From Pusillimonas caeni (GTDB lineage Bacteria; Pseudomonadota; Gammaproteobacteria; Burkholderiales; Burkholderiaceae_B): DNA of 64,000 nt. Positions 23,544 to 51,182 of this stretch are shown piece by piece. The position numbers and the translations under genes were made by a program. Numbering within the stretch: position 1 is the stretch's first letter; each line of letters begins with the position of its first letter. The DNA lies in the NCBI RefSeq assembly GCF_003545815.1, contig NZ_PDUW01000003.1:372001-436000 (forward strand), written 5' to 3'. The notes below the pieces were generated by a model. The model did not search any database. It worked only from the letters and a program-made list of their open reading frames with translations, and had not been told where the DNA came from.

Positions 23544-23550
23544 ACCACCG

Positions 23551-23572: not shown

Positions 23573-23616
23573 CCTGTTCACCTAACAGCCCATGGCGGCA
23601 CAGCCGCCCCAGACCT

Positions 23617-23913: not shown

Positions 23914-24177
23914 AGACACAAGCGTCGTTTGGCGGCACAATTAAAACCACGTTATCTTTAACTCATTCATCCAGATTTCAGCTTTTTCTTGTGTAATGAC
24001 GCAAACCCGTCAAGGTGGATTCCTTTTAAAGCGCAGATGCGCAAGCGTGCTTTTCAGGGCTTGCGCACAATCGGCATTACGATTGCCCGCTTTTACGGAT
24101 TCGAGACAAACCGCTTTCGGGTCTTCGCACAAATGCACAAAGGCAGATCAGCGGTTTTACGTTTTGGCAGAGCACAC

Positions 24178-34309: not shown

Positions 34310-36276
34310 GCGTCAACTCCATGGGCAGCCGTGTCTGTTTGGCGCCGGCGGCGTTTAAGCCGGTAGCGTCGATCGCTGATGGCCAACAGCCCGCCAAGTG
34401 CCATCAAGATACAGCCGATCCAGATCCAATCGACAAACGGCTTGAAGTAGACCCGCACGCTCCACGATCCACCGCCCAGAGGTTCCCCCAAGGAGACGTA
34501 CACGTGCCGCAGGCCGTTGGCGTCAATGGCCGCTTCCGTCATCGGCATGTCCGATGAAAAGTAATCGCGTTTCTCGGGATGGAGTGTGCGCAGCGCTTTG
34601 CCGTTCTTTGAGAGCAGCACGTCGCCAATTTCCGCCTCGTAGTTGGGGCCTGTTGCCTTGGTGACCCCGCGGAACGTCAAGTCATAGCTTCCCGCCTGCA
34701 CCGTAGCGCCGGGTTCCATGCGTAGGTCTTGTTCGGTTTCATACCCCATGACTAGCGTGACGCCCGTGACAAACACGGCAATGCCAAAATGAGCCAGATG
34801 CATTCCCAGCCAGCTGCGCGGCTGTTTCAGCGGGCCACTGCGGGTGGCGCGCACACGTTGCATCACGCCGATGGCCACCGACGCCGCGATCCAGGCCGCT
34901 AGGCCCAGTCCCAGCGCTATCAGCACAGACCATCGCCCCAGCAAGAGCGGGGCACCGATGCCGACGATCAGCGCTATCCATGCGGGATGCAGAAGCTGCT
35001 TTGTCAAGGCCGCGATTTTCGCCGATTTCCAGTTGGCTGCGGGCCCTATGGCCATAAGCAGCAGGGCGGGAATCATCAGCGGCACGAAGATGGCATTGAA
35101 GTACGGGGGACCGACCGAAATCTTGCCTAGGTCGAAGCCGTCGAGCAGCAGCGGATACAGGGTTCCGAGGGTTACGGCGCCGGCCGCTGCAGCCAGCAGC
35201 ACATTGTTCACCAGCAAGAGAGTCTCGCGCGACACCAATGAGAATTGGCCGCCTGTGCTTACTTTGGGGGCGCGCAGAGCAAAGAGCACTAATGATGCTC
35301 CCACCACAACAGCAAAAAGAATGAGCAGGAACACGCCTCTTCGGGGATCGGTGGCAAAGGCGTGCACGGACGTCAGCACACCCGAACGCACCAGAAAGGC
35401 CCCCAGCAGGGAAAATGAGAACGTACAGATGGCAAGGAGCACTGTCCAGTTCTTGAAGCTGCCGCGTTTTTCCGTCACGGCCAAGGAGTGAATCAGGGCA
35501 GTGCCGACAAGCCAGGGGATGAAGGACGAGTTTTCCACGGGATCCCAGAACCACCATCCGCCCCATCCGAGTTCGTAATAGGCCCACCAGCTACCCAGGG
35601 CGATGCCCAGTGTCAGAAACAACCAGGCAGCCGTAGCCCAGGGCCGGGACCATCGCGCCCAGGCAGAATCCAATTTTCCGGCCAGTAAGGCGGCCACGGC
35701 AAATGCGAAAGCCACCGAGAACCCGACATACCCCATATACAGTAAAGGTGGATGAAGTATCAGGCCGATATCCTGCAGTAGCGGATTCAAGTCCATCCCC
35801 TCCATGACGGGAGGCATCAGCCGCTCGAACGGATTGGAAGTTGCCAGTACAAACAGCAGAAATCCGACGGTGACCAAGCCCAGCACGCCCAGTACGCGCG
35901 CCACCATAGCCTCCGGCAGTTGTCTTGAAAAAAAGCTTACGGCAAACGCCCATCCGGTTTGCATCAGCAGCCACAACAGCAGCGACCCTTCGTGTCCACC
36001 CCACGTCGCGGCGATTCGATAGAACCAGGGAAGTTGAGAGTTGGAGTTCTGCGCCACGTAGAGAACTGAAAAGTCGTTGGCGAAGAACGACCCGCCAAGC
36101 GCGATAAAGCTGATGGACACCAAAAGAAACTGAGCGCGTGCGGCGGGACGCGCGAGGGCGATCCAGGCGGCATTGCCACGCGCGGCGCCCGCAAGGGCCA
36201 GGCTGGCCTGCGCTAGCGCCACGAACAGCGCGAGTATTAGGGAGAAATGTCCGATCTCGGGAAGCATGGCGATCAT
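34306..36276 (-). CDS. ccmF: Cytochrome c heme lyase subunit CcmF
   Basis: 656 aa with about 14 membrane segments. The tryptophan-rich WWD signature [18 protein letters not shown] is present, with heme-handling histidines in [24 protein letters not shown] and [11 protein letters not shown]. It forms the heme lyase with CcmH and CcmI and ligates heme to CxxCH. ATG overlaps the ccmE stop (ATGA). Confidence 0.96.
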
Positions 36277-36713
36277 GGCCTCCCTGCATTGGTGGCTTTC
36301 TCGGCTTCGTTCAAGGCGTGCTGAGCTTCGGGAGGCATGTAGTTTTCATCATGCTTTGCCAGTACCTCCTGGGCCAGGAACCGGCCGCCAAGCTCAAGCC
36401 TGCCTTGCACCACTACGCCCTTGCCTTCGCTGAAGAGGTCAGGGAGTATGCCCGTGTAGCTGACGGGTACCGTCTTGGCGTTGTCGGTCACGACGAACTG
36501 CACGGTTAGGCCGTCACGCCGTACGCTGCCCGCTTGCACGATCCCCCCGACGCGGAAGAGGCGTTCCTGGGGAGCTTCGCCCGCATTGACCTGCGTAGGC
36601 GTAAAGAAGAACACAAGATTATTCTGGAATGCATTGAGGACGAGCGCCGTCGCAATGGCGATGGCGGCCAGCCCGCCTCCAATGAGCAAGCTGCGTTGAT
36701 GGCGCTTCTTCAT
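36273..36713 (-). CDS. ccmE: Heme chaperone CcmE
   Basis: 146 aa; N-terminal signal anchor ([19 protein letters not shown]), OB-fold, and the heme-binding [12 protein letters not shown] motif with H121 as covalent heme ligand. It carries heme from CcmC to CcmF in the periplasm. Overlaps ccmD and ccmF by 4 bp. Confidence 0.96.
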
Positions 36714-36892
36714 TGGACTGCCTTTTTTTGCATGCGCTGCTCGCGAACTGCTTGCAGCAGCGCTGATCTACGGCGCCGTCCAAGAAGCATCTGTTCGGCG
36801 CACACAGCGATGATGGACATTCCCATGGCGCCCCATACGTATGCACCATAGCCGCCCATGGCCAGGAATTCAGTTGGACTTGACCATGTCAT
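36710..36892 (-). CDS. ccmD: Heme exporter protein CcmD
   Basis: 60 aa: [20 protein letters not shown] then a single membrane helix ([14 protein letters not shown]) and a basic tail [15 protein letters not shown]. Length, the GGY.AYVW motif and its place between ccmC and ccmE identify it. It releases heme-loaded CcmE from the CcmABC complex. Its ATG overlaps the ccmC stop and its stop overlaps ccmE. Confidence 0.9.
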
Positions 36893-37626
36893 TCTTGCAT
36901 CTCCTTCAATTCGTTCAGCCACCCGGCATGGCGCTCGCGCTCCAGAATGATGCAGCGCATACGTCTTAGTGCGGTGGCGATGGTGTACGCCCATGCGGCC
37001 AGGGCCATGAGCAGCATGCCGGCCAGCATGATCGTTGCCATGGACGGAGCGCGTGTCAGCGAGACCGAGGCCCCCTGATGCAGGGTGCTCCACCACTGGA
37101 CCGAGAAATAGATAATCGGAATGTTCACCACGCCGACAAGAGCCAGCACGGCAGCGGCCTTGTCGCCGCGTCGAGGGTCGTCCACGGCCGACTGGAGCGC
37201 AATGAAGGCCATGTACAAGAAGAACAGAATCAGTTCTGAGGTCAGGCGCGCATCCCACACCCACCAGGCTCCCCACATGGGCTTGCCCCACAAGGCGCCG
37301 GTCCATAGGGAGAGAAAGGTGAACATGGCGCCGGTGGGGGCCAGGGCCGATGCCATCATGGCCGACAGGCGGCTGTTGAGAACCAGCCCCACTGCGGCCC
37401 AGAAAGCCATCACCAAATAGATGAACATCGACATCCATGAGGCGGGCACATGCACGAAGATAATGCGGTATCCCTCGCCTTGCTGGGCGTCGGTGGGCGC
37501 CATGAAGAAACCTGCGTATAACCCCGCCGCAGTCAACAGGACGGAGGCTGCGCCAAACCACGGGATCAGGCGCCCAGCAAGCGGATAAAACGTTCTTGGC
37601 GATGCGTATTTGAACCAGTTGATCAT
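36889..37626 (-). CDS. ccmC: Heme exporter protein CcmC
   Basis: About 245 aa from the ATG at 37626 (MINWFKYASPRTFYPLAGRL); six membrane helices, with the WWD motif SLWTGALWGKPMWGAWWVWDARLTSELIL and flanking heme histidines (FVHVPASWM, STLHQGASVSLTR). It presents heme to CcmE. An upstream ATG at 37650 lies inside ccmB and is less likely. Confidence 0.95.
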   Translation of the reverse strand: MINWFKYASPRTFYPLAGRLIPWFGAASVLLTAAGLYAGFFMAPTDAQQGEGYRIIFVHVPASWMSMFIYLVMAFWAAVGLVLNSRLSAMMASALAPTGAMFTFLSLWTGALWGKPMWGAWWVWDARLTSELILFFLYMAFIALQSAVDDPRRGDKAAAVLALVGVVNIPIIYFSVQWWSTLHQGASVSLTRAPSMATIMLAGMLLMALAAWAYTIATALRRMRCIILERERHAGWLNELKEMQE

Positions 37627-37636
37627 CTGTTTTTCA

Positions 37637-38320
37637 TTACTCCAGCGCAATCTTCAGCGCGGCAGCCGTCGCCCAAGGAGCAAAAAACGCGGCCAGCACC
37701 AACATCGCTCCCAGCAGCGAAATATTCGCGCCTGTGCGTGCCCCGCCGGTGGCGACGTCAACAGCGGCCGTGCCAAAAATCAACACCGGTACGTAAAGCG
37801 GCAAAATCAGCAGTGTCAGCAGCACGCTGTTGCTGCGCAAGCCCAATGTCAGGCTGGCTCCAATCGCTCCAAGCAGGCTCAGCACCGGGGTGCCGAGCAA
37901 TAACGAGGCTGTCAGCGCGTATAGAGATGAAGGCGGCAAGTCGAATTGCAGTGCCAAAAATGGCGCCAGCAATGTCAGCGGCAGGCCGGTCAATAGCCAG
38001 TACGCGACGACTTTGCCCAATATCAGTACGCCCAACGGAGCGGGGGACAGGAGCAGTTGCTCCAGGGTCCCGTCCAGATAATCCCGTTCAAACAGGCGAT
38101 TCAACGAGATCAAGGTGGCCAGCAATGCGGCAATCCAGAGAATGCCGGGTGCAATCTGTCTGAGTATGTCTCGTTCAGCGCCAACGCCCAATGGAATCAA
38201 GCTGACCACGATGACAAAGAACGAAAGCGAAGTCAGGACTTCGGACTTGCAACGCATGGCGACTTTTAAATCATGTTTGATCACTCCATGGAAAGAAGCC
38301 AGCCCCAGGGGCGCACTCAT
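37637..38320 (-). CDS. ccmB: Heme exporter protein CcmB
   Basis: About 227 aa from the ATG at 38320, 4 bp after ccmA. Six membrane helices; the family segment LISLNRLFERDYLDGTLEQLLLSP is present. It forms the ABC-type membrane part that, with CcmA ATPase, releases holo-CcmE. An earlier in-frame start inside ccmA (38353) is possible but not needed. Confidence 0.94.
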   Translation of the reverse strand: MSAPLGLASFHGVIKHDLKVAMRCKSEVLTSLSFFVIVVSLIPLGVGAERDILRQIAPGILWIAALLATLISLNRLFERDYLDGTLEQLLLSPAPLGVLILGKVVAYWLLTGLPLTLLAPFLALQFDLPPSSLYALTASLLLGTPVLSLLGAIGASLTLGLRSNSVLLTLLILPLYVPVLIFGTAAVDVATGGARTGANISLLGAMLVLAAFFAPWATAAALKIALE

Positions 38321-38324
38321 GTGC

Positions 38325-38942
38325 TTATCCGCATGTGATGTGATACGTCGCATGCTTCAGTTTCATCTCATGATGCGTCGTGACAGCGGCTATTCCGCCA
38401 CGGCACAGGTGCCGGTCTATCGTTTCCGTCACCCATTGGGCGGCTTTGCTGTCCAAGGCGGCCAGAGGTTCGTCCAATACCCACAAAGGGCGTTTTTGCA
38501 GTACTAATCTAGCCAAGCTCACTCGACGCTTCTGTCCTTCAGACAAGAGCCGCGTCGGCAGATTTTCCTTGCCTTGCAATCCGACCTGATGCAATGCCGT
38601 GTGTATCGCACTTACGCTGGACGGTTCATTCGCCAGGGTCAAGGCAAACTGCAGGTTTTCCTCTGCATCTAGCTCTTCCTTCAGTCCTGGGAGGTGGCCT
38701 GCGTAAATGAGCTGACATCGGTATTCTTCATCCAGAGAGTCGATCTTGCGCCCGTGCCAGTACAGTGCGCCAGCAGCGGGGGCTGCCAGCCCCACAAGTG
38801 TGCGTAGCAGACTCGTTTTTCCACTACCGTTGTCGCCATGAATCACCAGACACTCTCCGGCCTTGAGATGAAAACTCAGGCCGTTGAACAAGCTGCGATC
38901 ACCGCGTACACATTCTAGGTTGAGAGCTTTGAACAACTTCAC
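38325..38942 (-). CDS. ccmA: Heme exporter ATP-binding protein CcmA
   Basis: 205 aa ABC ATPase. Walker A GDNGSGKTSLL (residues 36-46), signature LLSEGQKRRVSLARL, Walker B PLWVLDEPLAALD, and a switch histidine in VTTHHEM. First gene of the ccm operon. The upstream 390-bp gap holds a regulator-type box (39077-39093) and a nested palindrome. Confidence 0.96.
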   Translation of the reverse strand: MKLFKALNLECVRGDRSLFNGLSFHLKAGECLVIHGDNGSGKTSLLRTLVGLAAPAAGALYWHGRKIDSLDEEYRCQLIYAGHLPGLKEELDAEENLQFALTLANEPSSVSAIHTALHQVGLQGKENLPTRLLSEGQKRRVSLARLVLQKRPLWVLDEPLAALDSKAAQWVTETIDRHLCRGGIAAVTTHHEMKLKHATYHITCG

Positions 38943-39338
38943 CTCAATTTATGGGATTACTCCCAATCGGTAAAAGCGCAGGTTGCATGTGTTGATTCAC
39001 TCACACTGCTCAGCGCATTCGTATGGGTAATGACCCGTTCGATTGGGCCAATCATTACACACGATACGCCAACCCGATTAAGTCAATATTAAAGGCGCAG
39101 TGGCCGTATGTAACTCCGGTTTCAACCTTTGGGTCGCGCTGATGAACAACTCCGGTCCCTCCAAGCGGTGAGCATCGCCTAGTCAATTATGGACTTCTGT
39201 AGTAGTCATCAACTGACCACCTTGCTCTAAGCAGTAATGACCACGAGCCTAAGATTGGTACGTGCAGCATGGATGGCGGCGGCCCATCCCGCAGGATCTG
39301 AACCGAGGATAATGAGTGAGCGGTGCGTGCTCACTCGA
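38943..39338. promoter_or_regulatory. Promoter region of the ccm operon
   Basis: About 395 bp without a gene. It holds the ATTAAG-N5-ATTAAA box (39077-39093) and a nested palindrome at 39026-39058: GTAATGA / TCATTAC outside and GATTGG-G-CCAATC inside. No complete -35/-10 pair was assigned with confidence. Confidence 0.55.
39077..39093 (+). promoter_or_regulatory. PmrA/QseB-type direct-repeat box upstream of ccmA
   Basis: ATTAAG-TCAAT-ATTAAA, two TTAA(G) hexamers with a 5-nt gap, 135 bp upstream of the ccmA start. Same design as the boxes at 46278-46294 and 48440-48456. Confidence 0.6.
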
Positions 39339-39660
39339 TCAATCCAAGTGTTGCTTGACGAAATTGTTCAATTGCGTTTTTCCAATCGCTCCTGCCGTTC
39401 GATCCGCGAGTGAGCCGTTCTTGAATGCTAGGACTGCCGGTATGTTCTGAACCCCCGAAGCGATGTGTCAATGCCAGCGCATGATCAACGTTGATCTCAC
39501 CGAAGTGGGCGTCTTTGGCCATGTCATTGGAGGTTTGCTTGACCGGGGGCGACATGGCCCGGCACGGTCCACACCATTTAGCCCAGAAGCGCACAACGTG
39601 CACGCCGGATAGGCCTATGGTGGTGTCAAAACTCTCGGAGGTTAGTTCTCTGATTATGAT
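39339..39660 (-). pseudogene. Thioredoxin, frameshifted and without a good start
   Basis: RELTSESFDTTIGLSG, then VVRFWAKWCGPCRAM with the active site CGPC, reads as thioredoxin up to ALALTHRFG. After a run of five G (39452-39456 as C on the plus strand) the family sequence continues in the next frame: VQNIPAVLAFKNGSLADRT to KQHLD and TGA at 39339-39341. One base too many in the run breaks the gene. No ATG lies before the homologous start; the frame opens right after the ATPase gene stop. It is last in the cco operon. A sequencing error in the homopolymer would also explain the shift, but not the missing start. Confidence 0.75.
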
Positions 39661-39702
39661 TAAGTTTCCGGGCGAGAGGGATGAAAGATTTGGCGGTGCT
39701 GC

Positions 39703-41958
39703 TTAATGAGCAGCAGCCAAGCCGTCGGACTGAAATGGACGAGCAGAATTGCCGAGGACCGTCATGCTGCTTAGAAGCATGGCGACGGCGGCCGCACCGG
39801 GGGTAACGCCGATATGCAAGAACAACGCAACGATTGCAACGTTGTAGATGATCGAGAAAAAGAGGTTTTGACGGATTCGCCGCATGATGTGGCGGGCCAT
39901 TTGACGTGCCAGGACCACTTGGCTCATGCCGCCTCGCGTGATCACCACGCCTGAGGCCGTGACGGCGATGGCATTTGCACCAGTGACGGCCACACCGCAG
40001 CCGGCCGCAGCAAGGACCAGCGTGTCGTTGATGCCGTCGCCGACAAAAACAGTGTCATGCCCATGTTTCTGAAGGATTGCGACTTTGTCGTCCGGCTTGC
40101 TGGCTGCGTGAACGTGCTTCGGCGCAAAGCCAAGTTTTTCACCCACCCAGTTTGCCGCCATGGCGTGATCGCCCGTTACCAGCAGAGTTCGACAGCCTTC
40201 TTTACGCAGGAAGTTCAAGGACTTCAGCGAATCGGCCCGGATATTGTCTTGCAGTTCGATTTTGCCTTCCCATCGTCCGTTACGAGAAATGTGCGCTGTG
40301 GCGCTTGGTGCTGGGCCTGTTGCGGGATCAGCGGCTGCTTCCTCCTTCTCGGTGCAGCGCACGCCCTGCCGCTCCAGCCACTTGACGGCTCCGATCAGCC
40401 ATGTCGCCCCATCGGGCGCGATATAACGTACGCCGGCCGGATGCCGCTCCACAAGGGGCGTCAGCGGCAGATCTTCGATTCCACGAGAACGAGCATGCTG
40501 GACGATGGCGTTGGCCACAGGATGGGCAACGCCTGTTTCCGCGTTCGCGACGACTCGTAGGAGATCGTCGGGCGCCAGGTGCTCGCTTGTCATGCGCGCC
40601 ACTGTCAATTGCCCCGTCGTGAGCGTTCCCGTCTTGTCAAACGCAAATGTGCGGCCTCGCGCCAGGGCTTCGACACTGGCGGGATCCCTGAACAGGATGC
40701 CGGCGCGCGAAGCGCGAGCACTGCCTGCCGAGAATGCCAGCGGCAGGGCAAGCCCGACGGCGCAGGGGCAAGCCGCGACGAGTACCGAGAGCGAGGCTAG
40801 TAATGCGTGGTCGACGGCCATACCCATCCATAGGTGGCGCATGAGCGCAAGCAGCGATATCGCGCCAGCCACTGGAAGTAGCCATCGGGCAAATTGTTCG
40901 GCGAGTTTCGACATCGAGGACTTCGCGCCGAACAGCTCATGCATGCGCAGACCCAGTTTATCGGCATATCTTTCGCCTTGAGATTTTTCCACCCGCAGCA
41001 CTAACGGGGCCTGCAGATTCACCATGCCGGCATGCAGGTACTCGCCGGCGCTGCGCTCCAGCGGCAGAGATTCTCCCGTCAGCAAAGACGTGTCTACCTG
41101 CGACGCGCCCTTTTCTATGAGCCCGTCGACAGGTATGCGTTCGCCAGCGAGCACGTAAACTAGTGAGCCCGTCTGGACCGACTCCAGCGCAACGATTTTT
41201 TTATTTCCGTCAGGCTGGATGATGCGTGCCGTTTCCGGCATGAGCTGGCGCAGGGCGTCGATCGCTACCATGCTGTGCTTGCGTGCCTGGATCTCGATCA
41301 GCCGCCCCACCAACAGGAATGTGATAAGCATCGTGGCGGCATCGACGTATACGGCGGGCGAATTTCGAGTGAGGTTCCATAGCGACAGCAATAAGGAGCC
41401 CCAGACGCCCAGCGATATGAGGGCATCCATGCCGGGAACTCCGGCTCGCACTGTTTTCCAGCCCGCCCGATAAAAATCGAGGCCACTGTATAGAACCACC
41501 GGCAGGCTGAAAATGGTTGCGGTCCAGCCTACCAGCAAGGCATCGATACCGGCCACGGCCTCGATGCCAAAGTAAAGCATCCAGGATCCCAGCATGCTCC
41601 ACATGCCGAAGAAGGCGGCAACGATCAACTGCAGCCGTATCCGCGATGCTTGTTTTTCCAGGGATAGGTTCACCTCGTTGTCGTCCAGCAGCGGCGACAT
41701 TTCGTAGCCTAGGCCCTGCACCCGATCAAAAAGCTTTTGAAAATCGAAGCGCGCCGGTTCCCACCGAACTAAGGCGGAGCCGGAGGTGAAATTTACGTTG
41801 CTCTCCAGCACTCCCGGCGCTTTATCGATGACGCGCTGCACCGCCATGGCGCAACTGGCGCAGAACATGCCGCGCACGGAAAAAATCATGCGTCCGGCGG
41901 GGCGCAGCGACTCTAGGTCCAATGTGTTGGCTGCGGCGGCCGTTGTCGTCGACTGCAT
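39703..41958 (-). CDS. P1B-type copper ATPase (CcoI/CopA-like)
   Basis: 751 aa from the ATG at 41958, whose GAGGA site overlaps the stop of the preceding cytochrome gene. One N-terminal HMA domain with GMFCASCAMAV (C33, C36), then eight membrane helices with the metal-channel motif ACPCAVGLALPL, TGES in LLTGESLPLE, FDKTGTLTTG, the HP in GVAHPVANA, and GDGIND. The hinge part reads GDGINDTLVLAAAGCGVAV rather than the usual DAPALAAADVG. Its place within the cco operon points to CcoI, which supplies copper to the CuB site of cbb3 oxidase; copper efflux is the alternative. Confidence 0.9.
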   Translation of the reverse strand: MQSTTTAAAANTLDLESLRPAGRMIFSVRGMFCASCAMAVQRVIDKAPGVLESNVNFTSGSALVRWEPARFDFQKLFDRVQGLGYEMSPLLDDNEVNLSLEKQASRIRLQLIVAAFFGMWSMLGSWMLYFGIEAVAGIDALLVGWTATIFSLPVVLYSGLDFYRAGWKTVRAGVPGMDALISLGVWGSLLLSLWNLTRNSPAVYVDAATMLITFLLVGRLIEIQARKHSMVAIDALRQLMPETARIIQPDGNKKIVALESVQTGSLVYVLAGERIPVDGLIEKGASQVDTSLLTGESLPLERSAGEYLHAGMVNLQAPLVLRVEKSQGERYADKLGLRMHELFGAKSSMSKLAEQFARWLLPVAGAISLLALMRHLWMGMAVDHALLASLSVLVAACPCAVGLALPLAFSAGSARASRAGILFRDPASVEALARGRTFAFDKTGTLTTGQLTVARMTSEHLAPDDLLRVVANAETGVAHPVANAIVQHARSRGIEDLPLTPLVERHPAGVRYIAPDGATWLIGAVKWLERQGVRCTEKEEAAADPATGPAPSATAHISRNGRWEGKIELQDNIRADSLKSLNFLRKEGCRTLLVTGDHAMAANWVGEKLGFAPKHVHAASKPDDKVAILQKHGHDTVFVGDGINDTLVLAAAGCGVAVTGANAIAVTASGVVITRGGMSQVVLARQMARHIMRRIRQNLFFSIIYNVAIVALFLHIGVTPGAAAVAMLLSSMTVLGNSARPFQSDGLAAAH

Positions 41959-41965
41959 GGCGTGA

Positions 41966-43072
41966 TCAGTCCTCTTGTTCCGTACCCCCGCCGACGACCT
42001 TCCCGTTGACTGCCTTGCCGTAGAAGCTTTCCTCCCCATCATGGAATTCGACGCGCGCCTCTTCGAGGGTGCCGGTCTGACGGGGATCCTTGGGGCGTTC
42101 ATGGCTGTCGACGAAAGCTGCAACGTCCCAAGCTTCCTGGTCGGTCAGCGAGAATGGCTTGCCCAGCGGCATGTTGGCCTTGATGAAGCCGGCGGCCGTA
42201 TCGATACGCGCCATGCCCGCGCCCCAGTTGTAGGAGTTCGGGCCCCAGAGCGGGGGAAACACCACACCGCTGTCGGGATCTCGCTGGCCCTGGCCATCCG
42301 CGCCATGGCACAGGGCGCAGTTCTGCGCGTAGACTGTCTGTCCGCGCATCACGTCGTAGTCTTCTTCGGGTTTCTTGAGCTTGGGATAGCCTGAGCCAGG
42401 TAACTTTTCTCCCGTGGACGCACCATCGGCCATCCAATAGAAGTAGGTTGTCAAGTCGCGGTAGATATCGCTCCCGGCTGGTGGAGGCTGGCCCGATGGT
42501 GAGCCCTGTGCATTCATTGAGTACGTGAAACAGCCCTTGATGCGGTCCTCGATGGTACTGATTGACTTTGTCTTGCTTCGGTACGCTGGATAACGCACAT
42601 AGGCGCCCCACATGGGAGCTGAATTTTCTCGGCGTCCGGCATCAAGGTGGCAATTGACGCAAGCGAGCGTATTGCCGACGTGCTCGGACACCATGGTCGA
42701 CGTTTCCATGAAGATGGCGCGGCCTCGCTTGACGGCATCGCCGTAGGGACTGTCAGGAATACTGTTTTCCGATGGAGGTGAGTAATAGCCATCGGCACCG
42801 ACTGGCATGCCGGCTGTGGGCGCAGCCCTGTCTGCTTGGTGTGTCTTGCGGTCGGACTCCATGGCTTCACGTGTGTAGACCTGGCTGCCGATCTGGGTAA
42901 TGCCGCCTTTCTCGGAAGTGAAAGAGAACGACATCAGGCCGCTGTCATGAATCAGGTAGCCGGCGCCGAACAACAGGATGCCCAGTCCCGCGCTCCAGGC
43001 TAACCGCCGGGCGCCTGACATCCGCTTGCGTATGCCCGGCTCCGGCCGGTTAGAGGAATGGTTTTGTGTCAT
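41966..43072 (-). CDS. Membrane-anchored diheme cytochrome c, TsdA-like thiosulfate dehydrogenase
   Basis: 368 aa: one N-terminal membrane helix (LAWSAGLGILLFGAGYLI), then two cytochrome c domains. Heme 1 CVNCH (C138-C141-H142) is in LACVNCHLDAGRRENSAPMWG, followed by YPAYRSKTKSISTIEDRIKGCFTYSMN; this stretch is diagnostic of TsdA, in which a cysteine serves as unusual axial ligand of the active-site heme (candidate C181). Heme 2 is CALCH (C252-C255-H256). TsdA interconverts thiosulfate and tetrathionate. Located between the diheme CcoP-like cytochrome and the copper ATPase of one operon, it could feed electrons directly to the oxidase. Confidence 0.8.
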   Translation of the reverse strand: MTQNHSSNRPEPGIRKRMSGARRLAWSAGLGILLFGAGYLIHDSGLMSFSFTSEKGGITQIGSQVYTREAMESDRKTHQADRAAPTAGMPVGADGYYSPPSENSIPDSPYGDAVKRGRAIFMETSTMVSEHVGNTLACVNCHLDAGRRENSAPMWGAYVRYPAYRSKTKSISTIEDRIKGCFTYSMNAQGSPSGQPPPAGSDIYRDLTTYFYWMADGASTGEKLPGSGYPKLKKPEEDYDVMRGQTVYAQNCALCHGADGQGQRDPDSGVVFPPLWGPNSYNWGAGMARIDTAAGFIKANMPLGKPFSLTDQEAWDVAAFVDSHERPKDPRQTGTLEEARVEFHDGEESFYGKAVNGKVVGGGTEQED

Positions 43073-43087
43073 CTTGGCTCTCTATGC

Positions 43088-43906
43088 TTACTTGACAGTG
43101 TCGTCGCGGTCTCCCGGCAAGGACGCCGCATAATTGGATACCGCATACAGATCCTGGTAGGACAGTCGGCTCGCGATGTCGTCCATTAAGGATTGCGGTG
43201 AGTTGTGCCGGTGACCACCTTTCCAGGCGGCCAACTGGCCGAACAAGTATTCGGGCTGTTGCGCAGCCAGGGGCGGGAAGGAGACACCCACGCCTTGTCC
43301 CTGGTCTCCGTGGCAACTGACGCATGCAGGCACGTCCAGTTTCCAGTCACCTTTTTCGAACAGCAGGCGGCCTCTCTCCATGTCGGCATCGGAGTGCGGC
43401 AGCATCAACTGGGGGACGGGCAGGTTCGCATAGTAGGCCGTCACTTCCGCAATATCGTGAGCCGATAGTTCGCGCGCCACGTAGTGCATGGATTCGTTAA
43501 TGCGCTCGTCGGAAGCGAAGTCGCGCAGCTGCTTGGCCAGGTATTCCTTTGAAAGGCCGGCAAGACGGGGGGTGTTGCCGGCACCCTCGCCCTGATCGCC
43601 ATGGCAGGATGCGCAGCTCCACACGCTACCTCGGCCGGCATGGACCAGCTCGGGTGCATCCTGCGTCGCGATGGGAGTAGGCACTGCGGGCGTCACCGGC
43701 GCGACCGGGCCACTGGCGACCGTATCGGGCGAGCCGGAGTCCGTCCATGGAGCCAGGTCGCTTAGATAGATGCCGACGCCGGCCAGCGCCAAGGCGATGA
43801 GCACCGCCAGCAGGAAAATGGGAATCGGGCGGGGCGGCTCCCAAGGTTCGAATGTGGGATCGATGTCGTCGACACGGGGCGTTGTCGAGTGGTGATTAGT
43901 TTTCAT
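43088..43906 (-). CDS. Diheme cytochrome c, CcoP-like subunit
   Basis: 272 aa. One N-terminal membrane helix (IFLLAVLIALALAGVGIYL), a Pro/Ala linker, and two class I cytochrome c domains with WSCASCHGDQGEG (C98, C101, H102) and PACVSCHGDQGQG (C195, C198, H199). The domain order matches CcoP, but the sequence between hemes (RLAGLSKEYLAKQLRDFASDER, Met in NESMHYVA) is closer to c4/c5-type diheme cytochromes. It follows ccoO by 7 bp. Probably the electron entry subunit or donor of the oxidase. Confidence 0.8.
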   Translation of the reverse strand: MKTNHHSTTPRVDDIDPTFEPWEPPRPIPIFLLAVLIALALAGVGIYLSDLAPWTDSGSPDTVASGPVAPVTPAVPTPIATQDAPELVHAGRGSVWSCASCHGDQGEGAGNTPRLAGLSKEYLAKQLRDFASDERINESMHYVARELSAHDIAEVTAYYANLPVPQLMLPHSDADMERGRLLFEKGDWKLDVPACVSCHGDQGQGVGVSFPPLAAQQPEYLFGQLAAWKGGHRHNSPQSLMDDIASRLSYQDLYAVSNYAASLPGDRDDTVK

Positions 43907-43913
43907 GGCGTTC

Positions 43914-44564
43914 CTAACCCGCATGCCCGTCTGCCGCTGTTTCCGGACGGTGGTCATATCCGCGGTCCCTCTTCTGCAATTCCTCGTGGCTGGCCGGATA
44001 GGTGCGATCCAGGCTGAGCAGGTATTCGACGAGATCCAGCGCTTCTTTGCGAGCCACGACCACCCGGCCGCCCGGCGGCTGGAACTGGGCGGGCAGGCGC
44101 ACCACGACGTCGTCCTGCGCAGCTTCATCCTTCACGTCGAACATATAGGGATATGAAGGCATGATGCTCCAATCGAAGATGGCGCGCGGCTGGTACAGGT
44201 GCGTCAGATGCCAATCGCGGCTTTTCAGGCGGGCGCCGACGTTGAGCAGGTCGGGGCCGGTACGCATGGTGCCCAGCAGGTGGGGCGTGTCGTAGAAATA
44301 GTCTCCCGGCGTCGAGGCGCGGCCCCAGCCGCGGGCGCCGTCGAATAGCGTTTGGCCTGTGGAGCGGGGCTGCTGGCTGTGGCAGTAGATACAACCGTTG
44401 GCGACGTACTGCTGGCGTCCGAACAACTGCTGCTCGGTGTAGGGCTGGAGCTGCGCCGGCGGCTGCGATGTGCGAAGCTGCCAGGCGGGCAGAATCACCA
44501 GCATCAGTGTGGCGAGCAGCAAGACGCCAATTGCGCCAATGAGAAGTGGCAAAAGTTTGTTCAT
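43914..44564 (-). CDS. ccoO: cbb3-type oxidase monoheme subunit CcoO
   Basis: 216 aa. N-terminal membrane helix and a single CIYCH heme site (C58, C61, H62) in YVANGCIYCHSQQPR, followed by GWGRASTPGDYFYDTPHLLGTMRTGPDL and the axial Met in SIMPSYPYMF. This is the CcoO/FixO pattern. Overlaps ccoN by 4 bp and transfers electrons to the heme-copper subunit. Confidence 0.92.
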   Translation of the reverse strand: MNKLLPLLIGAIGVLLLATLMLVILPAWQLRTSQPPAQLQPYTEQQLFGRQQYVANGCIYCHSQQPRSTGQTLFDGARGWGRASTPGDYFYDTPHLLGTMRTGPDLLNVGARLKSRDWHLTHLYQPRAIFDWSIMPSYPYMFDVKDEAAQDDVVVRLPAQFQPPGGRVVVARKEALDLVEYLLSLDRTYPASHEELQKRDRGYDHRPETAADGHAG

Positions 44565-46177
44565 GACGCTTTCACAGGAGCGAACGTATCGACGGAATTG
44601 GTGCTCGATTCTTTTTTCAGCAGCAGCAAGGCGAAATGTGCGGCAAAGACGAAGTGGCCCAAGGTCATCAACGTGCCGCCGATGGATCGGCCTTCAAGAT
44701 AAGGAATCATCGATCGGGTGATTTCGGCAAAGCTCGATCCCGGATCCATCAACCCCATGCCTTGCAGGACGCCAGCGATGGTCAGGGAGACGAAGTAGAT
44801 CGTGAATCCGACCACCACCAGCCAAAAATGCGTTTGCACCAGTTTCGGGTAGGGCCAGCGCCGGCCAACGATGTGCGGCATCATGTAATAGAGAGTGCCA
44901 AACAGCACAAGCGAAACGAAGCCATAGGCGCCCAGGTGTGCGTGCCCGACGGTGTAATGGGTGAAGTGAGTGATCGAGTTGACCGAACGTATTGCCTCGA
45001 TTGAGCCCTGAAAGGAAGAGAGGGTGTACATCAGCGCGCCGATCCATACGAACCGGAGCGACATTGACTGCTTGAACGCCCACATGTTGGTGGCGACAGT
45101 GACGTGCTGGTTGATCGCAACGGCGATTACCGGGACAAACATCATGATGCTATGGACAACAGACAGCGTCACCGCCCAGGTCGGGATCGGTCCGCCCATC
45201 AGGTGGTGGATGCCGACCTGGCTGTAGAACAACGCCAGGCTCCAAAAACCGAGGAGCGAGACGTTGTATGAATACACCGGTTTGCCGATGATCTTGGGAA
45301 TAATGTAGTAGGCCATGCCAACGCCCATGGGCGTCAGCCACAATCCCAGCACGTTATGGGCGAACCACCAATTCACTGTCGCCTGCTGAGCGCCCACGTG
45401 CAGGCCGGGTATGTTCGCCACCAGGAACAAGAAGGGAAACCACACCATGCCGGCTAAGAAATACCAGCCAGACACATAGATGTGACGTGATTTCCGCCGT
45501 GCAGCAGTCTCAATCGCAGGCCAGGCAAGGAAGAAACCGCCCAATGCAAGCACCAAGTCGATTTGCCATGGGAATTCCAGCCACTCAATGCCATCGGACC
45601 AGCCGTTAGCGACGGCGATGGTCCCACCCAGAACACCCAGCGTCCAAAGAAAGGCCCCAAGATAGGCCATATTGGGCCGTCGAAGGGGCGTGTGGAAGAT
45701 TCGTGGCAACAGCCATAAAGCCACGCCGATGCCTGTGACCGAAAGCCAGCCATAGGCAACGATATTCAGATGTAGTGTGCGTGCACGGCCAAAAGTGATC
45801 TGCGCAACATCCGCGAGCCAATCTGGCCAGTGCAGCTTCAAGGATGCAATGACGCCGAATGTTGAGCCTATCAGTAGCCAGAGAATGCCAGCCGTGATCA
45901 GAACCAGAACTGGGCCCTTCCCGGCGCGATCGATGCCAGCGCGCAATACGTCGAAGTGATGTGATTCGTCCTCGTTCTGTTTACCAAAAGAGGAGCTGTC
46001 GTCGGGATGGCCGAGCTCTCCTTCCATGAAAATCGTGGAAGCCTCGGCTTTACCCACGAATATCAACTTATTGGCAACAGCCCAGACGAGAATGCCCAGC
46101 GCCACCAATGAAGCGACAAAGCTTGTCGCTAGCAAGGTTCCCAGTATAGGTGTCATAGCATACGTGTCCGCTTCCAT
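44561..46177 (-). CDS. ccoN: cbb3-type cytochrome c oxidase catalytic subunit CcoN
   Basis: About 538 aa from the ATG at 46177; an ATG at 46156 is equally possible and the frame is open to 46315. Around 13-14 membrane helices. Heme and copper ligands are in HLNIVAYGWLSVTG, WWFAHNVLGLWLTP, YYIIPKIIGKPVYSYN, YSQVGIHHLMGGPIPTW and HFTHYTVGHAHLGAYG, as in CcoN. This is the O2-reducing, proton-pumping subunit with high oxygen affinity. First gene of the minus-strand cco operon and divergent from the response regulator; a 17-bp regulator box lies in the shared region. Confidence 0.93.
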   Translation of the reverse strand: MEADTYAMTPILGTLLATSFVASLVALGILVWAVANKLIFVGKAEASTIFMEGELGHPDDSSSFGKQNEDESHHFDVLRAGIDRAGKGPVLVLITAGILWLLIGSTFGVIASLKLHWPDWLADVAQITFGRARTLHLNIVAYGWLSVTGIGVALWLLPRIFHTPLRRPNMAYLGAFLWTLGVLGGTIAVANGWSDGIEWLEFPWQIDLVLALGGFFLAWPAIETAARRKSRHIYVSGWYFLAGMVWFPFLFLVANIPGLHVGAQQATVNWWFAHNVLGLWLTPMGVGMAYYIIPKIIGKPVYSYNVSLLGFWSLALFYSQVGIHHLMGGPIPTWAVTLSVVHSIMMFVPVIAVAINQHVTVATNMWAFKQSMSLRFVWIGALMYTLSSFQGSIEAIRSVNSITHFTHYTVGHAHLGAYGFVSLVLFGTLYYMMPHIVGRRWPYPKLVQTHFWLVVVGFTIYFVSLTIAGVLQGMGLMDPGSSFAEITRSMIPYLEGRSIGGTLMTLGHFVFAAHFALLLLKKESSTNSVDTFAPVKAS

Positions 46178-46277
46178 AGGGGCTGCATCCGGTAGAGTCG
46201 TATCCGGTGCTGCCTCAGGAGATACGTGGCAATCCAGATTAAATACAGCCAAATTGGAGACACAATAAGTTGCCAGA

Positions 46278-46294
46278 ATTAAGGCAGCATTAAG
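46278..46294 (+). promoter_or_regulatory. PmrA/QseB-type direct-repeat box between cco operon and response regulator
   Basis: ATTAAG-GCAGC-ATTAAG, exact hexamer repeat with a 5-nt gap, in the 215-bp divergent region. It is 99 bp before the response-regulator start and 101 bp before the ccoN start, so it could serve both. Confidence 0.65.
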
Positions 46295-46392
46295 AGGTGA
46301 TGCGAGGGTGAGCAAAGCTTGAAAGACTGTTAAGATTTTTGCTTGATTGAGAGTTCAGAAGGTTTCCGGCGCTTGTACGCAAGGATAATGAA

Positions 46393-47070
46393 ATGCATAT
46401 TTTGCTCGTAGAAGATGATCTCCTCGTCGCGAGCGGTATTGTGGCGGGACTGAGATTGCATGGCTTGACGATCGACCACGTGAGCACGGCTAACTTGGCG
46501 GATGCTGCATTGGCGACGTCATACTTTGATGTATGCATCCTTGATCTTGGGCTGCCAGACGAAGATGGAATGGCATTGCTGCGCCGTTGGCGCGAAGAAG
46601 GTCGTGATCTTCCCGTTCTCGTATTGACGGCACGTGACGCGCTCAGCCATCGTGTGGAGGGACTACTTGGAGGGGCTGATGATTACCTGGTCAAACCTTT
46701 CGAGTTGGATGAGTTGCAGGCACGGTTGCACGTACTGACGCGCCGGGTCGCGGGCCGCAACACCGACTGCATGAATCACGGGGAACTGAAGTTCTGTTCG
46801 TCGACAGGCCGAGTATGGCTAGCCGATGAGCCGGTAGCGCTGGCACGTCGCGAGTTGTCATTATTGCGCGCCTTGCTGCAGAATCCCCAGGCCATCCTTA
46901 GTACAGAGCAGCTTTGCGATAGCGTCTATGGTTATGAGCAGAACGTGGAAAGCAATGCGATCAACGTACATATTTATCATTTGCGCCGCAAGCTCGGAAA
47001 TAATATTGTCGAAACAGTGCGTGGACTCGGTTATAGGCTTGGTTCAGCCGAGAAGGTAGTGGGAACATGA
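46393..47070 (+). CDS. OmpR-family response regulator (QseB/PmrA group)
   Basis: 225 aa. Receiver with MHILLVEDDLLVASG, phospho-acceptor D51 in VCILDLGLPDEDG, LTARDAL and the conserved Lys in DDYLVKPFEL; the C-terminal winged helix has LARRELSLLRALLQNPQAIL and VHIYHLRRKLG. AAGGA site 10 bp upstream. Stop overlaps the kinase start (ATGA). The PmrA/QseB group binds direct repeats of TTAA-type hexamers; such a box occurs before this gene, before dsbD and before ccmA, so it probably controls the cargo. Confidence 0.93.
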   Translation: MHILLVEDDLLVASGIVAGLRLHGLTIDHVSTANLADAALATSYFDVCILDLGLPDEDGMALLRRWREEGRDLPVLVLTARDALSHRVEGLLGGADDYLVKPFELDELQARLHVLTRRVAGRNTDCMNHGELKFCSSTGRVWLADEPVALARRELSLLRALLQNPQAILSTEQLCDSVYGYEQNVESNAINVHIYHLRRKLGNNIVETVRGLGYRLGSAEKVVGT

Positions 47071-48425
47071 GTCTGCGCTTGCGCCTTTTGCTGTATATCG
47101 GTATTTCGCTGACTGCGCTTTGGACTTTGGTGGCGACCTGGATGTTCATTGACGCCCGTCAGTCGTTAGGCCAGGCATTGGACAACCGTCTGGCGGCGTC
47201 CGCACGAATGGTTGCCGGGCTGGTTTCCCAATTTCCCGAACCTCAAGATATTGCCGCAATGGGTGATAAGCCATTGGACGTCGTCGCCCGAGATGGGGTG
47301 GCGTGCGAAGTAAGCCTCGTGCGCGGTGAAGTCGTGATTGAAACCGTGGCACGTACGGCAGGCAGTCCGGAACTGATGCATGCTGATCCAGGCTTCAGTA
47401 CCTATATATACGGTAATAAGCGATGGCGTACCTATGTACTGCGGCAGGGCGACGTTCAGATCGCTACCGCCGACAGCATCGACGTCAGAGAGGCATTGGT
47501 CAAAGAGTTGATCCTTTCGGCAGGGGTGCCGTTCGTTGTCGCTTTGTTTGGCACCCTGATCGTGCTGTGGTTGGGCATTACCCGTGGACTGGCGCCCGTG
47601 GAGCGTATTCGTAGCCTTCTGGCACGGCGCCGGCCCGGCGACGATAGTCCATTGCCTGAGGTGAAGGCCCCTGTAGAGTTACAGCCGCTCCTGCATACGA
47701 TCGAGCAACTTTTGGAGAGACTGCAGGACGCAATCGTGCGAGAGCGCCGATTCACCGATAGCGCGGCGCACGAATTGCGTACTCCCCTTACCGGTGTGAA
47801 AACACACATTCAAGTGGCGAAGCTTGCGTTGCAACGGCGAGATGAAAAAGCCACCATGGAAGCAGCCCTCACCAGCGCAGACCAAGGGGTACAGCAGCTG
47901 CAGAATATCCTTCAGCGTTTGCTTGATCTGGCGCGGTTAGAAGGCCATTCTGTCGCGAAGGAGGTTAGCGATCCGATTGAGGCTGCATCCATTGCAATTG
48001 AGGCATTGAAGCCAATGTACGGTGATTCTATAGGTAGGATATCGGTGCAAGGGGCTGACAACTCGCGACCGGTACGCGCCGCCCGACCACTTCTAGTTGG
48101 GGCAATTCAAAACCTAATTGATAATGCAATACGCTACGCGCCCACCGACACTCCCATTACGATTCGCTTGGAGCCGCAAAGCAATGGCACCATGCACATT
48201 AGTGTGCTGGACGAAGGCGCTGGCCTGAATGCGCAAGAGCGGGCTCAAGCAGTTAATCGGTTTTGGCGTGGAGACCCAAAAATACCCGGCTACGGACTAG
48301 GCCTATCTATTGTGAACGCGATTGCACGTCGACATGCGGGCGCATTTGAGCTTCTGGAACGGGATGGCGGCGGGCTGGAAGCACGACTTACGCTTCCAGT
48401 AGCGGGCGATACTACGCTTTCTTGA
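47067..48425 (+). CDS. Sensor histidine kinase (QseC/TctE-like)
   Basis: 452 aa. Membrane helix 1 at residues 5-27, a periplasmic sensor of about 125 residues, membrane helix 2 (VPFVVALFGTLIVLWLGI), HAMP, phospho-acceptor His in DSAAHELRTPLTGVKTH (about residue 236), N box NLIDNAIRYAP, and G boxes DEGAGL and GYGLGLSIV. The periplasmic part contains a single Cys (GVACEVSLV), so a thiol or metal signal is possible but not shown. It is coupled to the regulator by overlap. Confidence 0.92.
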   Translation: MSLRLRLLLYIGISLTALWTLVATWMFIDARQSLGQALDNRLAASARMVAGLVSQFPEPQDIAAMGDKPLDVVARDGVACEVSLVRGEVVIETVARTAGSPELMHADPGFSTYIYGNKRWRTYVLRQGDVQIATADSIDVREALVKELILSAGVPFVVALFGTLIVLWLGITRGLAPVERIRSLLARRRPGDDSPLPEVKAPVELQPLLHTIEQLLERLQDAIVRERRFTDSAAHELRTPLTGVKTHIQVAKLALQRRDEKATMEAALTSADQGVQQLQNILQRLLDLARLEGHSVAKEVSDPIEAASIAIEALKPMYGDSIGRISVQGADNSRPVRAARPLLVGAIQNLIDNAIRYAPTDTPITIRLEPQSNGTMHISVLDEGAGLNAQERAQAVNRFWRGDPKIPGYGLGLSIVNAIARRHAGAFELLERDGGGLEARLTLPVAGDTTLS

Positions 48426-48439
48426 GTTTTCTGCGAAGC

Positions 48440-48456
48440 CTTAAGCTTCCCTTAAT
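48440..48456 (+). promoter_or_regulatory. PmrA/QseB-type direct-repeat box upstream of dsbD
   Basis: CTTAAG-CTTCC-CTTAAT, close to the published PmrA box (CTTAAG-N5-CTTAAG as I recall it), 46 bp before the TTG start of dsbD and just after the kinase stop. Confidence 0.65.
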
Positions 48457-48501
48457 CCTGCAGGTGCATGATTCACCTAAGTTTACCTGCAGGAGTTCAG
48501 C

Positions 48502-50352
48502 TTGTCTGTCTATCGGATTGCCCGTGCGGCTCTCGTACTGTTTTGTTTTGCCGTTGGAAGTGCCTGGGCAGGCAATGGTCTGTTTTCGTCGGCCACGGAG
48601 CCCGAATTTCTTGAAGCCTCAGACGTATTCAAGGTAGAGGAGGTGAGGCAGCAAGGCGGAGAGTATATAGTCGAAGGGCAGATTGCCGACGGCTATTATG
48701 TCTACCGCCACTCGTTGAAGCTGGTCGACGACAACGAGAATGCTGTTGATCTGGCTCTCCCTGCTGGAACGCCCCGGCATGACGAGTTTTTTGGCGATAC
48801 CGTCATCTACACCGGCGATACGGCCCGTCTGCGCTTCCCGGCGGCTGTAACCGGCCCACTGACACTGCATTGGCAAGGCTGTGCAGAAGACGGTATCTGC
48901 TATCCACCGCAGACGATGCATATCAGCGCGCCAGCAGCGACAGCGGTAGCTGACGGTCAGGCTGTCGAGCAACCGCCTCAGGCATCGGAACCTGAATCAG
49001 TCTCGGAGCGCGGGCCTGATTCGGCCGGCATGCCTTCGGGCGCCAGTGTTGGCGAGGATCAGGCGGCTGCTCAGCGACTTGCTGCGCTGGGGCCTATTGC
49101 CGGCACGCTGCTGTTTTTCGGATTCGGCCTATTGTTGGCTTTTACGCCCTGCACTTTGCCGATGATTCCCATCGTTTCCACCATGGTCGTTGGTAGCCAG
49201 GCCAAGCCGCGTCGGGCTTTCGTTTTGTCGTCGTCATACGTCCTGGCGATGGCGGGTACCTACGCTGCAGTGGGGGTGGCGGCTGGACTGGTGGGTGCCA
49301 ATTTACAAGCCACGCTGCAGTCGCCTTGGTTGCTCAGCGCCTTCGCGGCGCTCTTTCTCATTCTGGCCAGTTCGCTATTCGGTCTGTTCGAGTTGCGCTT
49401 GCCATCCGCTGTGACGAATCGCCTCCAGGCAGCGGGGCCTGCTCGTTCGGGGGGGAGTATCACCGGTGCGGCGGTGTTGGGTTTTCTGTCGGCGCTTTTG
49501 GTTGGTCCGTGCATGACGGCTCCCTTGGCGGGTGCGCTGTTGTACATCGGGCAGACGGGCAGTGCGATCCAAGGGGGGCTGGCTTTGTTTGCGCTGGGTT
49601 TGGGTATGGGCCTGCCATTGTTGGCCATTGCTGTGTTCGGCGCCCGTGTGCTGCCCAAGCCCGGTGCGTGGATGGATCGGGTGCGCGTCGCCTTCGGCTA
49701 TGTCATGGTTGGCATGGCAGTGATGATGCTGACGCGTTTTCTGACCGGAACGACGAGTCTGTTGCTCTGGGGGGCCTGGATGCTGCTGGTGGCGGTGGGG
49801 CTCGTCGCTTGGGCGCAAGCCGTTACGAATAGGCAGCGGTTGGCGTGGAGCTTGCGTTCGGCGGCGGCGTTCGTCGGTCTGTGGTCTGTCCTGATGCTCG
49901 TGGGCGCCGCTTCAGGGGGTGACGCCGCCTTGCAGCCCCTGGCGCATCTGCGCGGCGCGCCCGCTGCGGCCACGCCAACCGCCGAGGTCAGTTATATCCA
50001 GGCGAAATCGGTGGCCGACGTGGATGCTCGCCTGGCGGAAGGCGCCGCGCGCGGCCAGTGGACCTTGATTGATTTCTACGCCGACTGGTGCGTCAGCTGC
50101 CATGTAATCGAGCGCAATGTATTCGGCGATCCCGCGGTTGCGGCGCAGCTGGCGCGTATGCAGGTCGTGCGGCCAGACGTGACGCGTAATGACGCTACAG
50201 ATAAGGAACTGCTCAAACACTGGGGCGTCATGGGGCCGCCCACGCTCATACTGGTGGGGCCGGATGGTACGGAACGGCGGGATCTGCGTGTGGTGGGTGA
50301 GATCGGTGCGCGCGAGTTTCAGGACCGCCTGGACGCGGCGGGGGTGTCATGA
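48502..50352 (+). CDS. dsbD: Thiol:disulfide interchange protein DsbD
   Basis: 616 aa from a TTG at 48502 with AGGAG seven bases upstream. Signal peptide, then the periplasmic alpha domain with C127 and C133 in WQGCAEDGICYPP, eight membrane helices with FGLLLAFTPCTLPMIPIV and LSALLVGPCMTAPLAGALLY, and a C-terminal thioredoxin domain with FYADWCVSCHVIE. It moves electrons from cytosolic thioredoxin to periplasmic partners. Likely clients here are CcmG, the two TlpA proteins and the DsbG-like protein. First gene of a long plus-strand operon. Confidence 0.95.
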   Translation: MSVYRIARAALVLFCFAVGSAWAGNGLFSSATEPEFLEASDVFKVEEVRQQGGEYIVEGQIADGYYVYRHSLKLVDDNENAVDLALPAGTPRHDEFFGDTVIYTGDTARLRFPAAVTGPLTLHWQGCAEDGICYPPQTMHISAPAATAVADGQAVEQPPQASEPESVSERGPDSAGMPSGASVGEDQAAAQRLAALGPIAGTLLFFGFGLLLAFTPCTLPMIPIVSTMVVGSQAKPRRAFVLSSSYVLAMAGTYAAVGVAAGLVGANLQATLQSPWLLSAFAALFLILASSLFGLFELRLPSAVTNRLQAAGPARSGGSITGAAVLGFLSALLVGPCMTAPLAGALLYIGQTGSAIQGGLALFALGLGMGLPLLAIAVFGARVLPKPGAWMDRVRVAFGYVMVGMAVMMLTRFLTGTTSLLLWGAWMLLVAVGLVAWAQAVTNRQRLAWSLRSAAAFVGLWSVLMLVGAASGGDAALQPLAHLRGAPAAATPTAEVSYIQAKSVADVDARLAEGAARGQWTLIDFYADWCVSCHVIERNVFGDPAVAAQLARMQVVRPDVTRNDATDKELLKHWGVMGPPTLILVGPDGTERRDLRVVGEIGAREFQDRLDAAGVS

Positions 50353-51182
50353 GCGGCATTGGTCCATTTCCTATACAGGTCGTCACGGTTATTGCCGCCG
50401 TACTGCTGGCTTGGCTGACAGCACGAATTGTCGGTCGGAGGACGCCTGATGTGTCTTACAAAGCCGCCGGATCAATGATTCTTGACGCCGTGTTTTGGGG
50501 GCTCTTGACGGCACGCTTGGCATACATTGCGCAGTGGTGGGAGGAGTACTCGGCCACACCCAGATCCATGATCGCCATCGGCGATGGTGGATTTGTCTGG
50601 TGGGTTGGCGTGCTGGTGGTCGTTGCTTACATCTGGCGGCGAACCCGGTCCGCTCAGATCTTGCGCGTCCCCGTGATGGCGGGCGTCATGGTCGGCGTCG
50701 CCGCATGGGCCCTCGCGGGCGGGGTGCTCGCTTTATTGCTGCGCGCCGCGCCGCCTTTGCCGGACCTGCAACTGGCGACGCTGGACGAACATCCCGTTTC
50801 GCTGAGCGAGTATGCGGGGCGCCCCATCGTGCTCAATCTTTGGGCGAGCTGGTGTCCGCCATGCCGACGCGAGATGCCGGTGTTTGAACAGGCTCAGACC
50901 GATTTTCCGGATGTGGCCTTCGTGTTGGTCAACCAAGGGGAAAGCGCGCAGCAGGCGCAGGCTTTTCTTGAAAGTGAGGGTTTGAGCTTGACGGATGTTT
51001 TACTTGACCCCGCTTCCGAGGCCATGCGCACAATGAACTCGCGTGGCTTGCCCACCACCTTGTTTTTCGATGCGCAAGGCCGTCAGGTGGACATGCATTT
51101 GGGCGAGATCACCATGCCCAGCCTCAAGGACAAGATGCTGCGTCGTTTTGACCTATCCTCCGGCTCGGGAGCCGAAAAATGA
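50349..51182 (+). CDS. TlpA-type thioredoxin fused to an Lgt-like membrane domain
   Basis: 277 aa. Residues 1-135 form about four membrane helices and resemble the N-terminal part of prolipoprotein diacylglyceryl transferase (GPFPIQVVTVIAAVLLAWL, LDAVFWGLLTARLAYIAQWW, IGDGGFVWWVGVLV), but the catalytic Lgt half is absent. Residues 136-270 are a TlpA/ResA fold with WASWCPPCRREMP (C169, C172) and cis-proline in GLPTTLFFD. Overlaps dsbD and the next gene by 4 bp. Probably a membrane-held periplasmic disulfide reductase driven by DsbD. Confidence 0.85.
   Translation: MSGIGPFPIQVVTVIAAVLLAWLTARIVGRRTPDVSYKAAGSMILDAVFWGLLTARLAYIAQWWEEYSATPRSMIAIGDGGFVWWVGVLVVVAYIWRRTRSAQILRVPVMAGVMVGVAAWALAGGVLALLLRAAPPLPDLQLATLDEHPVSLSEYAGRPIVLNLWASWCPPCRREMPVFEQAQTDFPDVAFVLVNQGESAQQAQAFLESEGLSLTDVLLDPASEAMRTMNSRGLPTTLFFDAQGRQVDMHLGEITMPSLKDKMLRRFDLSSGSGAEK

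Follow-up and report, generated by a model that had tools for sequence, protein, structure and literature searches.

The locus analysed here, a window of 64,000 nucleotides from Pusillimonas caeni, raises the question of whether three short boxes, each found in the promoter region of a different operon, and the two-component system encoded between them constitute a single regulatory unit. All three boxes reported in the preliminary description were recovered where it had placed them, with the two hexamers 11 bp apart in each case (Table 1), and read in the direction of the respective genes they yield the consensus YTTAAK-N5-CTTAAT. The whole-window scan which that description had proposed detected TTAAG-N6-TTAA only at the three boxes (four matches, one of the places being palindromic); among 100 shuffles of the window, the mean was 0.12 matches and none of the 100 reached four. 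Across the genome (4.44 Mb in 23 contigs), there are seven matches at six places, three of which are the boxes. Because a reversed control pattern also produces seven matches in the whole genome, TTAAG-N6-TTAA is at background genome-wide and, showing no enrichment, was dropped as a stand-alone means of finding the regulon. The anomaly is the clustering, with three of the six places in the genome located inside 9.4 kb. One of the three remaining places is within an ORF and two are outside the longest ORFs, which were the ones retained in ORF calling, so that "intergenic" is approximate here.

Table 1. The boxes, their associated promoter elements and the surrounding genes, by position in the window.
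Feature	Position	Strand	Remarks
ccm cytochrome-c maturation operon	32476..38942	-	ORFs; CcmF and thioredoxin-like gene scanned
-10-like hexamer TATCGT	39061..39066	-	10 nt past box 1; identical in L234
Box 1, ccm promoter	39077..39093	-	TTTAAT-ATTGA-CTTAAT, read towards ccmA
Heavy-metal (copper-type) P-type ATPase	39703..41958	-	
TsdA-like thiosulfate dehydrogenase	41966..43072	-	PDB 5lo9 (TsdBA), E 7.4e-91; SoxA-TsdA domain
Cytochrome c, two haem stretches	43088..43906	-	putative TsdB, from its position
ccoO-like subunit (FixO)	43914..44564	-	FixO domain above cutoff; NCBIfam ccoO 103.9 bits, cutoff 200.65
ccoN-like cbb3-type oxidase subunit I	44561..46156	-	COX1 domain; best NCBIfam model ccoN, 253.4 bits, cutoff 583.15
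-10-like hexamer TATTGT	46262..46267	-	10 nt past box 2
Box 2, ccoN promoter, divergent from regulator	46278..46294	-	CTTAAT-GCTGC-CTTAAT
Putative extended -10 (TGN-TAAGAT), regulator-kinase operon	46331..46336	+	36 nt past box 2
Response regulator, OmpR/PhoB type, DsbR clade	46393..47070	+	
Sensor histidine kinase, DsbS-like	47067..48425	+	single conserved periplasmic Cys80
Box 3, dsbD promoter	48440..48456	+	CTTAAG-CTTCC-CTTAAT
-10-like hexamer CATGAT	48467..48472	+	10 nt past box 3
dsbD	48502..50352	+	
Two TlpA/redoxin-type genes, dsbE counterpart	50349..51730	+	
dsbG	51766..52539	+	306 bits, cutoff 124
TauE/SafE-type exporter	52589..53392	+	

Together with the -10-like hexamers located downstream, the boxes form a composite element, which was fixed for whole-genome searches as NTTAAK-N6-TTAAT-N10-YANNNT. 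This pattern has exactly three matches in the source genome, all at the ccm, cco and dsbD promoters, and its reversed control has none. The 10-nt spacing was first spotted in this window and tested afterwards: offset 10 carries the hexamer pattern in 29/29 listed promoters, and no other offset between 0 and 29 does so in more than 6, in a list that omits near-identical copies and the non-fitting loci L202, L235 and L238. Because five of these promoters were picked either with the composite pattern itself (L139, L166, L204 and L205) or by eye (L203), 24/24 is the fairer count. As for the omitted loci, L202, from a Halomonas relative, has three half-sites upstream of the regulator and lacks both the +10 hexamer and a box in front of dsbD; in L235 (genome G022), the ccoN box is followed by AAACAT at the +10 position, and one half-site of the dsbD box is changed to CTTTAG; and L238 has a box before ccoN that gives no composite match. 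The spacing between box and hexamer resembles that of PhoB-type activation. The TGN-TAAGAT block in front of the regulator-kinase operon is also kept in the alignment of relatives, as read by eye. An inverted repeat, CCTGCAGGT / ACCTGCAGG, is present at 48457-48465 / 48485-48493, directly before the dsbD start, and by eye does not recur in relatives.

Relatives of the regulator were identified at E <= 1e-75 in 26 of the 268 genomes of the family (27 matches including the window itself), and the 26 other regulator loci were fetched. The box precedes ccoN in all 15 fetched loci in which this gene adjoins the regulator start (one gene away in L139), a count that includes the near-identical copies L114 and L115 as well as L117, L137, L138 and L139, where the first or both half-sites start with G. 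The dsbD box is likewise present in 9/9 family loci whose kinase gene is followed by dsbD, and additionally in L165. In 6 of the 26 loci (L116, L118, L121, L123, L135 and L136), no box was found on the divergent side of the regulator, and none of these has ccoN on that side within contig reach. In seven aligned loci, the mean identity is 6.83 of 7 in the hexamers, 5.0 in the spacer and 3.5 in the flanks. Box 1, the spacing and TATCGT are kept in front of ccmA in the diverged locus L234 of genome G233, where ccmA is 61% identical and the surroundings differ; this locus overturned the view that only copies at 99.99% identity with the window possess box 1. Decaying copies were also observed, in which the dsbD boxes persist next to a kinase match of only 52 residues, a dsbD remnant, or a split regulator and TsdA (L121, L208 and L238).

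The composite element has 43 matches in the 26 regulator-positive genomes, with at least one in 25/26, compared with 11 matches of the reversed pattern; in 26 control genomes, 21 of which belong to one genus and are mostly larger, there are four composite matches (in 4/26) and nine of the reversed pattern. By our own sorting, 41 of the 43 accompany a sulfur gene, a gene of regulon type or the regulator itself: 16 at cco, 13 at dsbD (including a remnant before tlpA in G077 and a second dsbR-dsbD locus in G049), four at soxC, three at ccm, one each at a ttrB-like and a rhodanese gene, one in G179, which lacks the cco operon, next to the regulator, and two at the far side of a sox cluster in G050 and G053, with the -10 pointing the wrong way. 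The other two, in G062 and G063, fit no explanation. The four boxes in front of soxC belong to G077 and three g3 genomes; two of the encoded proteins score 630.6 and 636.8 bits with TIGR04555 (cutoff 420), and the other two were identified by tblastn at 97%. A further box in G077 is followed at a distance of about 150 nt by a TtrB-like gene (385.2 bits, cutoff 416) and then by one of TtrC-like type (195.7 bits, cutoff 314), and in a second locus of G075 the box precedes the rhodanese gene. Three matches taken for off-target (G049:2380718, G077:C19 and G077:C24) in fact precede dsbD, soxC and the ttrB-like gene. Among the four control matches, those in G022 and G042 (L231:6583 and L232:8350) precede genes for Blh-like sulfur dioxygenases (cutoff 625; scores 400.4 and 354.5 bits). 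One of these two genomes, G022, also encodes a relative of the regulator (53%), with cco and dsbD alongside.

The protein encoded between the boxes had been described as a PmrA/QseB-type regulator. Its OmpR/PhoB type and the likeness of the box to that of PmrA stand, but membership of PmrA or QseB was rejected on the tree placement and on the scores of the best NCBIfam models, both below the cutoff (PmrA 219.4 bits, cutoff 330; QseB 212.2 bits, cutoff 345). In a 91-row tree, it forms a 14-row clade (support 100/99) with P. fluorescens DsbR, of a regulator type linked to copper and disulfide stress, and relatives from Halomonas and Alcanivorax; L203 was left out of the regulator and kinase alignments. 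The kinase scores 191.7 bits with NCBIfam QseC, below the cutoff of 475. A single Cys column runs through the first 185 residues of the kinase in 22/22 aligned sequences, including that of P. fluorescens, in an alignment that omits L121, L135, L203 and near-identical copies. We take this Cys80 column to correspond to the residue that binds copper in P. aeruginosa DsbS.

Pseudomonas itself was also compared. In P. fluorescens P5A, the regulator is 59% identical to that of the window and is encoded divergently from dsbD; the intervening DNA contains GTTAAT-CATCG-GTTAAT-N10-CATTGT. The pattern GTTAA-N6-GTTAA-N11-CATNNT, taken from P5A, occurs once each in 18 of 40 Pseudomonas genomes (P5A among them), with no match of the control; all ten of the 18 that were inspected are directly before dsbD with dsbR on the opposite side, about 1 kb from the box in four of them (L211, L212, L215 and L216). 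The regulator clade, the aligned periplasmic Cys of the kinase, the adjoining dsbD-tlpA-dsbG genes, the spacing of the box and the +10 hexamer are all shared. The half-sites differ, being mostly CTTAAK/CTTAAT here and GTTAAT in Pseudomonas; furthermore, the boxes of the window also precede CcoNO-TsdBA and ccm, and those of relatives sox or ttr-like genes, and the system of the window resides on a mobile block. The original DsbRS paper is said to be that of Yu et al. 2022, which may already describe the DsbR motif. According to the portions of the literature available, DsbRS is copper-responsive, copper binding by DsbS stopping its phosphatase action on DsbR (PMC10141476, PMC11195947, PMC9233671), and DsbR is an activator of dsb genes (PMC11195947, PMC10141476). 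In P. fluorescens SBW25, as far as the accessible text goes, one evolved clone with a small-colony phenotype has an intergenic change in a predicted DsbR site (distances 114 and 49; PMC13101516). The equivalent position in P5A is the last base of the box, where the letter is T, whereas a change from A to C is given in that text.

Two other systems invite comparison. The protein of the window shares with PmrA (BasR) the OmpR/PhoB-type architecture and the equivalents of Asn188 and His193, but has Tyr in place of His195; box 3 fits the PmrA-box consensus CTTAAG-N5-XTTAAT, as given in the part of the source available (PMC3973317), and no lipid-A gene was seen among the box-bearing operons. In the Halomonas study, the sections at hand report a "QseB" gene upstream of tsdB-tsdA-dsbG, from which quorum-sensing control was inferred (PMC9237845). 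L201 has a DsbR-clade regulator in that arrangement; by way of difference, no binding box is described in the parts of the Halomonas paper covered here.

The operon behind box 2 had been described as an oxidase operon. The CcoNO oxidase subunits stand; because neither reaches the cutoff of its NCBIfam model (ccoN or ccoO), they are divergent relatives of these families, and neither ccoP nor ccoQ was found beside ccoN-ccoO. The TsdA-like protein has a SoxA-TsdA domain (35.9 bits, cutoff 27), a two-haem sequence and a distal Cys, and aligns to 5lo9 through the Gly-Cys-Phe stretch; the NCBIfam SoxA model reaches 52.6 bits, below its cutoff of 110. The match to 5lo9 and the SoxA-TsdA domain give the operon order ccoN-ccoO-tsdB-tsdA-P-type ATPase and refine the assignment to a CcoNO-TsdBA unit, which is predicted to oxidise thiosulfate. 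By analogy with the Halomonas protein, as presented in the part of that paper available, the distal Cys would be a haem ligand (PMC9237845). TsdA itself is common in the family, given that relatives at E <= 1e-60 are present in 107 of the 268 genomes. Matches of at least 60% identity over most of the protein occur in 18 genomes, 15 of which are regulator-positive; as for the other three, G022 has the 53% regulator relative and none was found in G194 or in G233, whose contig ends in ccoN. In the ccm operon, the genes other than CcmF and the thioredoxin-like one bear presumptive names. A 90-aa thioredoxin-like ORF at 39331-39603 covers only part of the domain and is probably a remnant.

This cargo is carried by a block of about 63 kb that spans the window from about 11600 to 64000 and extends 10.4 kb into L229. 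In two genomes of other genera, G211 and G075, the block is over 99.5% identical: the mismatches number 2 and 5 over the 40,000 bases of window positions 24001-64000 (identity over 99.98%) and 55 and 46 over the 12,401 bases of positions 11600-24000; past the end of the window, the match with both runs on for 10.4 kb at 99.98-100%. The block encodes transfer-type proteins (TraG, TrbB-type and CagX) and a ParB-like protein, and no integrase was identified among its scanned proteins. The block has the appearance of an integrative conjugative element bearing this cargo; a plasmid search with the island returned only four weak partial matches. Near the far end of the block (L229:6552-7410), a gene for an ArsR-type regulator adjoins that of a membrane rhodanese, possibly a second sulfur-responsive unit. 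The mobile block contains no composite match beyond the three. The proposed regulon covering the whole cargo would thus take in the three cargo operons, and possibly the regulator's own, but not the rest of the block.

The view that the boxes are sites of a shared regulator, already proposed in the preliminary description, is strongly supported by conservation and geometry. We consider it very likely that the DsbR-type regulator encoded between the boxes binds them head-to-tail and activates the three operons together. In such a scheme, the kinase partner, which carries the single periplasmic Cys80, would sense the signal, and dimers of the phosphorylated regulator would occupy the two half-sites, 11 bp apart, directly ahead of the -10 and in the position of a good -35. 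Activation would provide CcoNO-TsdBA and the P-type ATPase for electron transfer from thiosulfate to O2, ccm for the attachment of haem to these cytochromes, and dsbD-tlpA-tlpA-dsbG-tauE for periplasmic thiol repair and export. Copper, the signal in Pseudomonas, might act here too, or else a sulfur compound that reacts with thiols.

The same boxes could serve a different PmrA/QseB-type regulator encoded by the host, with the neighbouring regulator using other sites. The half-sites do match the PmrA-box consensus in the part of the source available (PMC3973317), the control elements in G024 and G036 have other two-component genes at most about 200 nt away (the orientation in G024 makes little sense for this), and in G194 the composite element precedes ccoN, yet no DsbR-type regulator is present in the 16 kb fetched. 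Against this, the element follows the regulator clade across positive and control genomes and the block is common to three genera as a unit, which together make control by such a host regulator very unlikely. That the boxes are chance AT-rich promoter pieces, a notion encouraged by the background frequency of TTAAG-N6-TTAA alone, appears extremely improbable in view of their conservation against diverged flanks, their exact spacing and the shuffled expectation in the window.

The direction of control also has to be considered, since the box overlaps the expected -35 region: if sigma-70 reads the promoter there, binding of the regulator would block RNA polymerase and the protein would be a repressor. 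This is unlikely, in that PhoB-like activators use such a spacing, no good -35 is apparent by eye, and the accessible parts of the reports cited above describe activation of dsb genes by DsbR (PMC11195947, PMC10141476). Activation by the DsbR-type regulator is hence the preferred reading.

From its gene content, the module is best described as one of thiosulfate oxidation, cytochrome maturation and thiol repair. More tentatively, it is possible, if somewhat doubtful, that DsbRS-type systems with a single-cysteine kinase mainly switch sulfur-oxyanion respiration (TsdA-CcoNO, Sox, Ttr and sulfur transferases) and sense thiol-reactive sulfur species, copper sensing in Pseudomonas being a specialised case. 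In the literature searched, a link between this regulator family and thiosulfate oxidation is unnamed save for the "QseB" of the Halomonas paper, in the part of it available (PMC9237845). The boxes described here offer a precise site model for a little-studied regulator family, tied to thiosulfate oxidation, and point to a mobile element whose energy module travels with a promoter code of its own.
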